DNA from: Phalacrocorax aristotelis
Lineage: Eukaryota; Chordata; Aves; Suliformes; Phalacrocoracidae
Reading direction: 5' to 3'
Assembly: GCF_949628215.1 (NCBI RefSeq)
Contig: NC_134276.1
Span: 8,955,690 to 9,019,689 of the forward strand
DNA: 64,000 bases
Below are positions 20,537-25,734 of this stretch, in pieces (within the stretch, counting starts at the first letter, position 1; each line of letters begins with the position of its first letter). A model generated the notes under the pieces. It searched no databases. It saw only the letters and a list, made by a program, of their open reading frames with translations, and had not been told where the DNA came from. Position numbers and translations under genes: made by a program.

Positions 20537-21653
20537 CTAGAAGAAACAGAAATCACAAGTGCGTTAGGGGGAGATTAAACGGGTCAAAATATAACAAGTT
20601 TTCTTTTTTTCTTTTTTTTTTTTTTGCCTTTTAGCAGTAATATTTGGTCCTTTGCCTTAAAAAACAGGAAGCAGCATAAAACAAATAAACGAAGAACAAT
20701 AAAAACAGAGGAGAAAAAAAAAAAACACAAAACCCTAAAAACGTTGTCTTCTCTCTGTTCAAATGCGTTCTGGAGCCAAAGCCTGAACATTTCACTCCCT
20801 AGATTAGCTCCATGTAAATTTAGCCCATCAGTTTCAATAAAGTGAGTGGGATTTAGCCAGATCTAAACCTCGAGGGCGCAATTTGGGAAAGCAAAAAAAT
20901 AAAATCGAAGCGGTTTAAACAAATACATATATTTGTTCTAGGCACTGCTTGGATATTACAGCTAACGAACAAACAGAAGAAGAGGCATTTATTGAATAGC
21001 TTTGGTTCGCGACCCTCCTAGGAGGTCGCCTTTTTCTTTTACCGTAAGGTCACGTACGTACTTACAACGGCAATAAAATATCGCAGTTTTCTCGGCTTTT
21101 GAATAATCGCAATTCTGCGACGCGACACCGTGAGAGGGGTTGCGTGCTAACTCTGCCCCAAGAAACAAGCTGGTTTTTGTTTGACGAGATCCGTGCCCGT
21201 GGGGAGGACAAGGATCTTGCCATTCGCCTGGGAAAGAAACTCCTGCCGTGAAACTCCGGCGGGAGGTCCGGAGCCGCCGGCGGCGCCTTTCGGAGGGTCG
21301 CAGCACCTCGGAGGCAGGGGAGGCGGAGGGGAAGGACCGGGCAGGGCTCCGGGAGCCCCGGCGTTCCCGGCCGGGCGGGCAGGACCGCACCGCACCGCGC
21401 CGCACCGCACCGCTCCCCGCCGCCTCCCCGGGGCTGCGCCGCTCTGCCCGGCCCCCGGCCCCCTCCCCACCGCCGCCGGCCCCCGCGCTGCAAGGCGGCG
21501 GGACCTGCGGGCTGCTTCTTTTCTTTTTGGGATGGAGCCGAAGGGATGGGGATGAGGATGGGGATGAGGGGGTGGCAGCCGGTCCGGACACCGCACAGCC
21601 CCCCCTCCGCCCCCGACCACGCACAAAGAGGACCCCCGGGACCCCGAACCCAC
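20537..21653 (-). other. FZD4: FZD4 single coding intron
   Basis: A GT-AG intron of 1117 bp (donor CAG|GTGGGT at 21653, acceptor CTAG at 20537). The exon-1-proximal half is very GC-rich and belongs to the CpG island. The distal half is A/T-rich, with a T/A homopolymer pair around 20608-20636 and 20714-20726. No other gene is seen inside. Confidence 0.9.
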
Positions 21654-21917
21654 CTGGAGCTGGCTGGAGCAGCCGTACTGGATGAGCGGGGTGAAGGTGG
21701 TGAGCTGCAGCTCCGCGTCCGCCTGCAGCTCGTGTCCCACCAGGTTGGGCATCTTGGTGACATTGTAGCCCAGGTTTTGGCACATGGCGATGCGGATGGC
21801 GTCGCAGCGCCGCTCCTCCTCGTCCCCGAAACCCCGCGCCCCGCCGAGCAGCCCCGCCAGCAGCAGTGCCAGCAGCCGGCCGCGGCCGGCCGCCCCCCCG
21901 CCATGGCCCCCCGCCAT
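21654..21917 (-). CDS. FZD4: Frizzled-4 coding exon 1 (residues 1-88)
   Basis: First coding exon of FZD4. The ATG at 21917 sits in an optimal GCCATGG context. It is the first in-frame ATG after an in-frame stop (TAG, 22083-22085), so the start is well supported. Residues 1-29 form a low-complexity, Gly/Ala/Leu-rich signal peptide, which is poorly conserved in the family. The mature N-terminus [10 protein letters not shown] and the first part of the Fz domain follow, with C38, C46, C83 and the N52-V-T sequon (equivalent to human N59). The donor CAG|GTGGGT at 21653/21654 ends the exon in phase 0 after CSSQLQ, exactly where mammalian FZD4 is split. The exon is extremely GC-rich, and a GGGGCC tract starts 19 nt upstream of the ATG. 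Confidence 0.96.
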
Positions 21918-21936
21918 GGCCCGAGCAGCGCCCACC

Positions 21937-22030
21937 GGCCCCGGCCCCGGCCCCGGCCCCGGCCCCGGCCCCGGCCCCGGCCCCGGCCCCGGCCCCGGCC
22001 CCGGCCCCGGCCCCGGCCCCGGCCCCGGCC
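21937..22030 (-). repeat. (GGGGCC)n repeat in FZD4 5' leader
   Basis: Fifteen uninterrupted GGCCCC units on the plus strand (21937-22026) plus a partial GGCC, which is (GGGGCC)15-16 on the FZD4 sense strand. It ends 19 nt upstream of the FZD4 ATG. All six frames are open through it: Gly-Pro (the FZD4 frame), Gly-Ala and Gly-Arg in sense; Pro-Arg, Pro-Ala and Pro-Gly in antisense. The unit and strand match the human C9orf72 repeat. G-quadruplex and R-loop formation are known for this unit and are inferred here. Copy number in the animal may differ, since such tracts are hard to assemble. Confidence 0.97.
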
Positions 22031-22373
22031 GCGCCGTGCCGCACGGGCCGGCTCCAACGGGGAGGGACCGGGGGCGGCTCCGCTATTAAACGGCTTCGCC
22101 GAGAAACTGCCCAGGGGAGGGACGGCACCTCCCCGAGCCCTCCCAGCCCCCGCCCCGGGGAGCCCGCCCCGCCCCAGCGCCCCTCCCCGCATCCCGGGGA
22201 CGGGGCGGGGGTCCTACCTGCACCGGCACCGAGAGGTCGTGTGTCCCCCCCTGCCCCGCGCCCCCGAGAGGCGCCTTTCCTCTGGCTGCATCCCGACACC
22301 CCTTGCAGGGCGCACCCCGCCTCTTCTCCTCTCTGGGGTCCTGCCTGTACCCCCATCTTCGTCCCTCAGAAAC
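22031..22373 (-). promoter_or_regulatory. FZD4: FZD4 CpG-island promoter region
   Basis: GC-rich, CpG-dense sequence just upstream of the repeat. GC boxes are visible on either strand: CCCGCCCCGCCCC at 22163-22175 and GGGGCGGGG at 22202-22210. A weak TATA-like TTTAATA on the minus strand (22084-22090) would place a start near 22055-22060 and give a leader of about 140 nt containing the repeat. The start site is not proven. The upstream edge is capped by a CR1 element at 22374. Confidence 0.6.
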
Positions 22374-22823
22374 GCTGTCCAGAGATGGGCAACGAAGCTG
22401 GGGAAGGGTCTGGAGAGCAGGTCTGATGGGGAGCGGCTGAGGGAGCTGGGGGTGTTTAGCCTGGAGAAGAGGAGGCTGAGGGGAGACCTTATCGCTCTCT
22501 ACAACTACCTGAAAGGAGGCTGTAGCGAGGTGGGGGTCGGTCTCTTCTCCCAGGTCACTAGTGACAGGATGAGAGGAAACGGCCTTAAGCTGCATCAGGG
22601 GAGGTTTAGATTGGATATTAGGAAAAATGTCTTCACTGAAAGAGTGGTCAGGCATTGGAAGAGGCTGCCCAGAGAGGTGGTGGAGTCACCATCCCTGGAG
22701 GCGTTCAAAAAACATGTAGACGTGACATGTTGGGACGTGGTTTAAGACATGGTAGTGTTGGGTTGATGGTTGGCCTTGATGATCCTGGAGTTCTTTTCCA
22801 ACCTTCATGATTCTATGATTCTA
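22374..22823 (+). mobile_element. CR1 LINE 3' part
   Basis: CR1 in plus orientation, opposite to FZD4. It starts within the end of the reverse-transcriptase frame (GTCCAGAGATGGGCAACGAA), keeps an open frame to about 22745 ('[22 protein letters not shown]'), and passes through the 3'UTR to ATGATTCTATGATTCT at 22808-22823. It is little diverged. Its coding section closely matches the element that runs off the right end of the window (63841-63960), so both are probably the same subfamily. Confidence 0.93.
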
Positions 22824-25734
22824 AACGCCCTGGGGAGCTATGCCCATGCCCCCTCTCCCCACAACCTTCTTCCATCCCTTCCCTGTGCCTGGCACTCCTG
22901 GGACACACCCCCACCGTGCCTCCCCAGCATGGGTGCTGGTGCTAGGGGCTCCTCTTGGCACACAAGTCTGGCTCCCCAAGGGACAGGGTGGGCTGAAACC
23001 CCAGCACAGATATTGTGGCTCATGCTTATTGCACCCCAGCCTTTCCCTCGCTTCTGGCCTGTTGTTTTACAGCCAAGGGTGCTCACCTTCTTCGTGGCCG
23101 GGTTAAAAATATCCAGGGTGGTTTTCTAATCTGCCACCTTTTCTTCCTAATGAGTTAAATTGCACTGCTGGCCGCTGGGTTACATCTGGGGTTTAGCATT
23201 GTTTGTTTTTTCACTGGGGCCAAGAAACCTGGAGGGCACTGCTAGGTACCTTCTGGCATTTGTATAAATCTCTGTAAAATAAATAAGTGTGGATGAAGCA
23301 TTTGTGAATTTGGAGGGGAAAGGGCTGGATGATTAAGTAGACCTTTAACGTGTCAGCGGGAGGAGGGATTAAGAGCAGATAAATGAGGCTCGCGCTTAAA
23401 TTCTCTCAGTATTATTTACACCTGTAATAAAATCTGGTTGAGCTGGTTGTGCCTTTAGGAAAAATATGTCATCTATTAATGAATTCTTTGTAAAGCACTT
23501 TGAAAATGTTTGTAAAGCCCCAGTTAAGTGACCTTTTACTGTGTGCGTACAGCATGTGGCATGTGCATGTGCTCCTGAGCGTGTCTGTCGCGAGCAGCTA
23601 TGCCTCCGTACACACCTCGGGGTCTTCGCTTCTCCCCGGCATCTCCCTGATGCATCGCTGGACTAAGACTAAGAGACTAAGGCAGCACTTAACAATGGCT
23701 CATTTCCAGGAATGAGACTGTAAGTCACAGCAAAACCCATGCTATGAAGTGCCCTGTGCTCGGTCACTGCGGGTTTCCCCTCTGCGGCTCCGCCGCCATC
23801 AGGGTTCTTTCGCCTCTGGGATGCAGGAAATGTGTCTGTGAGCTGTATCGTGATGTTGTAGGGACTGATGGGCTTTAAGTGTTATTTCCTGTAGCAAGAC
23901 AGATAGTGATTTAATTGAGGTTTCATAAGCATAGATATTTACACAGCTCTCATCACCGTTAATACTTCACAGCTAGCTCTAATAAACAGTGCCTATAACC
24001 TTAGAAAATCCTTGCAAGGCAGACAAGTAATATTATCTTAACTTTCTCAACACAGAGGCAGACAGCGCTACAGTCCCAAGGTCAGGCAAGGAGTCTACGA
24101 TGGAGTCAGCAACTCAACCATATCTCGCAAGGCCCGTATTTACTCCCAACCGTTGCTGTCCGTAACCAGCAGCGCTCAGCTGCTAATCTGGGTGGATGAT
24201 AATGCCGTGAACGCACACAGTGTGCTGCACATGTCCGCCGAGCTGTTCCCAGCCCCACCGACTTTACCACCCACATCAGGCAAGCGCAGGGAATGGGTGA
24301 TGGGTGCTTTCCACACAAACACTCGAAAGCAGGAGGCAGAGAAGTTTATGTTTGGGTTAGGGTTTTTTTTGTCCAAATGATGTAGGAAAGAAGACTAGAG
24401 GGAGGATCATGGTGACCTTAAAAACTATGTATCTTTGTCTTAGTGTATGAAAACCCTTTTCATTTGCAGTCTCCTGTTGCAGTTAGGCACTGAAACAGAG
24501 TTTGCTGCTACGAGAGCAGGACCTTTGCCTAACTGCCATGAAAAATAATAACCTACTGCATATTCAGCAGTTACACAGAAAAACCTTCTGCCTGTGGACC
24601 TGGTCCTTGGACTCAGTGAAGGGGCAGGGGGATATTTTAAAGATACAGTGGACACAAGTATCTTTTTAGAAGAACAACTCTCCCTCCCAAAAAAAAAAGC
24701 CCTACCACTATTGCCGTTTCTTTGAGAACACAAAATAAATATTAGAAAGTGCTACATTGCTGTGTTTTCTTTGGAAAGTCTTTTAGATAACAGGAATTAG
24801 TTTTCAAAACAAGAGTGCTGGGAGAGGTGGTGGCAAATCATATGAGAGGTTGGAGTTGGGAAAAATGGTAATTACCCTGCTTTGAACCTTATGCATATAT
24901 TAACAGTGATTAAATGTCACATGATAAGCACGTACATAATAGTTTCTTTAAACAGATCAAAGTAAGAAACCTCCGGGATAGTGGGTTTAGAGATTCTTAG
25001 ATTACTGGGCAGTGTGAGACAGTGGCCTGAATCCGGCACAGCACAAGCCGTGTTCCTTCCTTGATTATTGCCTGACTTACTGCATATTTTTTTTTAATAA
25101 ATCTGATTTCAGTTTTGAGGTTGCCTTCATTAAAGGATCAGCAGCTGCCCTGGTAATTATTATTTACTGTGGCTGCCAAGAATTATATTTGATACCTAGT
25201 CTGAGTTATCTTCAGCTTCCAGCCACTGACTTTTGTTCTATCTTTACCGGCCAGGTTGAGAAGTCATTACTGAGATTATCCCTGTAGGTAATGTCAGGCT
25301 GTGATTAAGGCACCCTTTGACCTTTTAGTAGTAAGGAAAATAGACTGAACTTCCCGAGTTTCTTACTGTAAGGCTCCTTTTCCAATTCTTTAATCATTAA
25401 TTTGATTTTAAAAGAGCAAGGGTTGACCCTGCTGTTTGAAAAGCACTTTCAGCCCAAACCATCCTGTTCAGTCTCAATGGATGTATCTGAATTCGTAGCC
25501 TAAGCACCCTTGGCCCCTTTAGAGTCAACTAGGATAGGCAGACACTTGCAGAAGGCAACTCACATAATAGGAATTACATGAATATAAAATGCTGCTTATA
25601 ATTTATTATTATCTTGTTATTACTATTTCCCCCTTAAGTTTCCATGTGTACTTCTGCATATTCATTAAAGTGGTGAACATATTTTTACATTACAAAAATA
25701 AACAATGCTTACCAGCATCTCTCAGAGTCTTCCA
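22824..25734. other. Intergenic spacer, no gene seen
   Basis: Upstream of FZD4, between the promoter-proximal CR1 and an ancient CR1 relic. No supported exon, RNA gene or well-formed repeat is seen. Confidence 0.55.

Follow-up and report, generated by a model that had tools for sequence, protein, structure and literature searches.

The GGGGCC hexanucleotide repeat of C9orf72 is read in the sense of its gene. Depending on the transcript, this repeat is located in intron 1 or in the core promoter, and wild-type human alleles carry 3–30 units (extract of PMC5822839). A second GC-rich repeat, the CGG repeat of FMR1, lies in a 5′UTR; there, synthesis of FMRpolyG starts at an ACG codon that precedes the repeat by 32 nt and is part of a putative Kozak element (extract of PMC8106499). 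Repeats of the GGGGCC class are also known from surveys of whole genomes. In the Himalayan griffon, CCCCGG, a motif that belongs to the GGGGCC class, outnumbers every other hexanucleotide simple sequence repeat, with 657 loci according to the accessible text of PMC12108375. In human data, an association was found between CCCCGG microsatellites and distance to the transcription start site (TSS), on its downstream side, with a q value of 2.5 × 10−17 (PMC3566118, accessible text); we read the coefficient as closeness of CCCCGG to the TSS.

A term search of the main texts of three avian surveys (PMC4725869, PMC4203960 and PMC9951716) did not retrieve the CCCCGG/GGGGCC motif. Judged by titles and the first parts of abstracts, none of the open-licence papers found for GGGGCC together with FZD4 appears to concern a repeat at FZD4, and those found for the FZD4 promoter and 5′UTR contained, on the same basis, nothing usable. 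The repeat is thus of a kind already known, and its placement before FZD4 was not found described in open-licence literature. Here we describe such an array in a bird genome, compare it with the systems above and place it among its relatives in the same genome.

Results

A pure GGGGCC array precedes the FZD4 start codon

The window, by which we mean the entire 64-kb stretch of DNA analysed, corresponds to C1:8955690–9019689. On its minus strand, positions 22030–21935 read GGCC + (GGGGCC)15 + GG, an uninterrupted tandem array of 96 bp with a period of 6, 16.0 copies and 100% match. It is therefore a perfect tandem repeat within the 1–6 bp range of unit lengths. The 15 full units occupy positions 22026–21937 and are flanked by the partial units GGCC (22030–22027) and GG (21936–21935). 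A spacer of 19 nt (21936–21918) separates the last full unit from the ATG of FZD4 at position 21917. Since FZD4 is also encoded by the minus strand, the unit reads in the sense of the gene. These observations confirm the preliminary description, which had reported 15 pure GGGGCC units on the FZD4 sense strand, ending 19 nt from the ATG. A pattern of two GGGGCC units gave 14 overlapping minus-strand matches in the 64-kb window (21937–22026), whereas 100 shuffles that preserved the dinucleotides of the window averaged 0.00 matches, none of them containing an adjacent GGGGCC pair.

The identity of the gene is supported by the Pfam domains Fz and Frizzled, which the two exons carry as expected. 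The best PDB match of exon 2 was Frizzled-4 (E = 5.4 × 10−300), and the best chain other than FZD4 scored 6.6 × 10−123. The coding part of exon 1 (minus strand, 21917–21654) comprises 88 codons that specify the signal peptide and the first half of the Fz domain, and it ends at CTCCAG/GTGGGT. The coding part of exon 2 including the stop codon (minus strand, 20536–19208) specifies 442 aa, the remaining Fz domain and the seven-pass membrane region. Joined, the two exons form a single open frame of 530 aa. The frame runs from stop to stop at 22082–21147, and ahead of the Fz domain it contains a single ATG, the one at 21917, whose context, GCCATGG, is strong. A 13-bp perfect duplication, CCCCCCGCCATGG, at 21894–21922 generates two ATG codons, 21917 and 21904, that differ in frame; the FZD4 frame contains that at 21917 only. 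When a second-haplotype copy of FZD4 exon 1 was sought in the assembly, only the window itself and one weak 65-base match were returned; apart from that match, the exon 1 region is single copy.

Further upstream, at 22381–22824, about 0.35 kb from the array, is a sequence that we take to derive from the 3′ portion of a CR1 retrotransposon. Such an element would bound the proximal promoter region of FZD4.

The array shares its unit, and its strand relative to the gene, with the C9orf72 repeat. It differs in that it immediately precedes a start codon, lies at another gene and has a non-disease length. With 15 units, it does not reach the roughly 30 units above which an expansion is pathogenic and falls within the human wild-type range of 3–30 (extract of PMC5822839). 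Nor does the array occupy a recognisable first intron, being directly upstream of the start codon in exon 1, although an upstream exon is possible. A special C9orf72-like feature at FZD4, as had been proposed, is unsupported, and by the human yardstick 15 units are no expansion. The griffon survey shares the repeat class, gives counts rather than positions and, in its accessible text, does not name FZD4 (PMC12108375). The human promoter microsatellites share the motif; those data are human and, in the accessible text, are without a specific link to FZD4 (PMC3566118).

The array belongs to a genome-wide class

The window's own genome (1.279 Gb in 352 contigs) was searched with patterns of perfect units, and the resulting placement counts may be lower bounds. 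Patterns of 4, 8, 10 and 14 GGGGCC units gave at least 425, 135, 92 and 42 overlapping placements, respectively; those for 4 and 8 units were listed up to 100 places, and those for 10 and 14 units in full. At least 17 perfect arrays, distributed over 11 contigs, contained 10 units or more, and at least 7 arrays had 14 or more. The 17 arrays listed contain 35, 22, 17, 15 (FZD4), 15, 15, 14, 13, 13, 12, 11, 11, 11, 11, 10, 10 and 10 units. The FZD4 array, tied for fourth to sixth place after those of 35, 22 and 17 units, thus has siblings elsewhere in the genome. The earlier suggestion that FZD4 might be an unusual site did not hold up in this search, which was the check that the preliminary description had put forward; with at least 16 other arrays of 10 or more units, we rejected the view that the FZD4 site is unique or exceptional. 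The longest array of the class (L023:2442–2656; G000:C16:8368642–8368851) consists of 35 perfect units, which is above the wild-type range of 3–30 units of human C9orf72.

Three other hexamers composed of G and C only were counted as comparators. At a length of 8 units, GGGGGC gave 6 placements (2 arrays) and GGGCGC and GGGCCC gave none, compared with at least 135 for GGGGCC. Because these three hexamers are rare or absent at this length, the counts suggest that the GGGGCC unit itself, beyond its G+C content, is favoured in this genome. Counts of the reversed pattern were dropped as a control, since reversed GGGGCC is a rotation of itself, and the other hexamers were used instead.

Arrays of the class lie in CpG-island-like DNA

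FZD4 exon 1 is embedded in a GC-rich island (21250–22500) in which GC ranges from 0.73 to 0.81 in 500-bp windows. To describe the surroundings of the arrays, we used 500-bp flanks with the array left out, and a CpG-island threshold of GC > 0.5 and CpG o/e > 0.6. The flanks of the FZD4 array passed this threshold (GC 0.71, CpG o/e 0.69), as did those of 16 of the 17 arrays overall (mean GC 0.66, CpG o/e 0.84); the sole exception was L022, with a CpG o/e of 0.59. None of 20 control positions, which were hand-picked at round coordinates and not matched for gene density, passed (mean GC 0.39, CpG o/e 0.20). At L009, L012 and L034 (3 of 17), sequence about 2 kb off passed as well, so that the island is not local at these loci. 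The CpG-island context is also partly built in, because GC-rich DNA is the more probable birthplace of a unit made of G and C only.

Genes near the arrays

Genes were sought on both strands at 21 array loci (the window, L009–L024, L029, L030, L033 and L034), 17 of which have arrays of 10 or more units and 4 of which have 9 units. The 9-unit loci are those among the matches listed, and hence a partial set; L025–L028, with shorter arrays, were left out. Coverage was uneven, consisting either of long frames or only of frames with an ATG in good context within 900 bases; L030 and L033 were inspected in the latter way alone, and L015 was read in part. Tool matches tied 8 of the 21 loci to a gene, and array–gene distances were worked out from the coordinates of match and array. 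Besides FZD4, with the array 19 nt before the ATG, sense arrays were found 173 nt before the ATG of a relaxin-3-like gene, 481 nt before that of prohibitin 1 and about 1.3 kb upstream of that of a CDK6 inhibitor, presumably CDKN2C. At TTC21B, a sense array precedes the matched residues by about 0.2 kb; at an HSP70-family gene, which we take to be HSPA13, one precedes the matched frame by about 1.1 kb. A sense array of 17 units (L012:2459–2566) follows the matched exon of DPP6 at a distance of about 2 kb. Judged by the presumed exon number and intron, this array probably lies in the first intron and on the sense strand, as the C9orf72 repeat does. The remaining array, at FICD, is antisense to its gene.

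The G-rich strand is therefore the sense strand in 7 of the 8 gene-tied arrays, with FICD as the exception. As a two-sided sign test calculated by hand gave approximately 0.07 and the loci are few, we regard the sense-strand excess as a lead only and make no claim of a strand bias. The flanks were G-rich on the G-rich strand of the repeat in 6 of 13 examined arrays of 10 or more units, so that a transcription-linked strand skew is unsupported. Additional flanks of L009, L011, L014, L023 and L029 yielded no recognisable gene. Of ten ORFs located near five arrays, none matched Pfam; in a second set of ten ORFs, 4 matched.

At L018 (2410–2619), an 11-unit GGGGCC array (2453–2523) lies within a frame that starts with an ATG in the context GTCATGG. 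This frame reads MAARLLWRASQWLRT followed by (Gly-Ala)n; next comes what could plausibly be coding sequence, ending in a donor-like GTGAGA, so that the whole resembles a first exon. It had no Pfam match, and its PDB matches were confined to the Gly-Ala stretch and its edges.

Upstream starts and predicted structure

In the sense direction, the FZD4 array can be read as poly-GP, which is FZD4's own frame, poly-GR or poly-GA. The GP frame has no ATG upstream of 21917. It does contain a near-cognate ACG (minus strand, 22037–22035) 4 nt before the array, in the context GGCACGG, that is, with a purine at −3 and a G at +4. From this codon, a stop-free frame of 570 codons leads through (PG)n into FZD4. 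FZD4 and FMR1 thus both have a GC-rich repeat before the AUG and a near-cognate ACG upstream of it. They differ in the repeat unit, and the ACG frame of FZD4 enters the main protein whereas that of FMR1 yields the separate FMRpolyG (extract of PMC8106499).

Upstream ATG codons are present in the other two frames. One at 22192–22190 (minus strand) is in the poly-GR frame and would give 198 codons if spliced as FZD4; the other, at 22356–22354 (minus strand, AAGATGG), is in the poly-GA frame and would give 249 codons on the same assumption. Both frames would overlap the FZD4 start, and both ATG codons matter only if transcription begins upstream of them. By eye, GCAGGTAGGA and CTCCCCTGGGCAGTTT, about 0.1 kb apart at 22221–22104 on the minus strand, resemble a splice donor and acceptor. 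Use of this candidate pair would splice out the ATG at 22192.

On the G-rich strand of the array, the G4Hunter score averages 1.92, and all 72 of the 72 25-nt windows within the tract score at least 1.5. The G-quadruplex propensity pointed out in the preliminary description is thereby borne out as a prediction, and on these scores the G-rich RNA or DNA strand may fold into G-quadruplexes. The tract is not the strongest of the region: in the 64-kb window, 817 G4Hunter windows reach an absolute score of 1.5, and the extremes, 2.8 and −3.32, are stronger than the tract. Folding of the leader with ViennaRNA, in a model that omits G-quadruplexes, gave a z-score of 0.43 relative to shuffles, with 127 of 200 shuffles at least as stable. 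We therefore rejected the RNA fold as a sign of selected structure.

Discussion

We consider it likely that the FZD4 array is a hexanucleotide microsatellite that grew by slippage in a CpG-island promoter or 5′ leader, as one of a genome-wide class. The support comes from the 17 or more arrays of this kind, among which that of FZD4 is tied for fourth to sixth, from CpG-island-like flanks at 16 of 17 arrays versus 0 of 20 controls, from the rarity or absence of the three comparator hexamers at 8 units, from the griffon and human data on CCCCGG (PMC12108375, PMC3566118), and from the G4Hunter mean of 1.92. According to this explanation, a GC-rich GGGGCC array would have lengthened by replication slippage within the FZD4 promoter/5′ leader. 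It is one of the (GGGGCC)n arrays in CpG-island-like DNA, the readable cases of which are mostly at gene 5′ ends. Its position would, with somewhat better than even chances, be downstream of the TSS and hence in the 5′UTR. Its length likely differs between individuals, as would be expected of a pure array, and its net effect on FZD4 would be slight tuning or none. We infer that the array is probably transcribed and variable in length, and that any effect on FZD4 would be modest at most.

The array could act within the FZD4 5′UTR. On this reading, a G-quadruplex or hairpin 19 nt before the AUG would slow scanning ribosomes, and repeat length would tune the dose of the receptor. Such a brake supposes that the array is in FZD4 mRNA; it is compatible with the slippage explanation and adds a real effect to it. 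The position and sense strand of the array and the mean score of 1.92 speak for a brake. We nevertheless consider it unlikely, given a leader fold indistinct from shuffles (z = 0.43), the strong GCCATGG context of the AUG and at least 16 similar arrays elsewhere, among which FZD4 is not visibly singled out. Slightly less doubtful is the possibility that the array is upstream of the TSS and that any role is played by promoter DNA, through nucleosome exclusion, an R-loop or G-quadruplex, or as a target of CpG methylation. This would agree with the CpG-island context and with the FICD array, which, being antisense to its gene, indicates that sense RNA is not required for the class to exist. It would, however, leave FZD4 with what we expect to be a very short 5′UTR, because the gap between array and AUG is just 19 nt.

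Some types of read are prone to errors in GC-only repeats, and the real tract might accordingly be shorter, longer or interrupted. An assembly artefact appears very unlikely, however, since the adjoining exon 1 of FZD4 was found once, barring one weak 65-base match, at least 17 such arrays are spread over 11 contigs, and arrays of this class have also been reported from the Himalayan griffon (extract of PMC12108375). We judge it highly improbable that scanning ribosomes initiate at the ACG at 22037 and translate (Gly-Pro)n into FZD4, giving an N-terminal extension. The open frame of 570 codons, the GGCACGG context and the precedent of FMR1, in which CGG repeats start FMRpolyG at an upstream ACG, are consistent with it (extract of PMC8106499). 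Against it stand the strong context of the AUG at 21917 and the far lower efficiency of near-cognate starts (extract of PMC8106499). The open frame through the array is itself no evidence, because an array of G and C only lacks stop codons in every frame. Least probable of all, in our estimation, is that FZD4 exists in two forms: a normal one from the AUG at 21917 and a longer one from the ACG at 22037, with a length-variable Gly-Pro tail before the signal peptide. If true, the two-form FZD4 would offer a single view of a genome in which C9orf72-type GGGGCC arrays are tolerated at the 5′ ends of many genes, among them an array whose 35 units exceed the range of human wild-type alleles.

As a single locus, the FZD4 array is an ordinary member of a class that is common in this genome. 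FZD4 is a reasonable test gene, because its array is so near the AUG that an effect on translation should be measurable. The class as a whole, with at least 17 arrays of 10 or more units, 16 of the 17 listed in CpG-island-like DNA and one of 35 units, is natural material for the study of repeat stability and tolerance.
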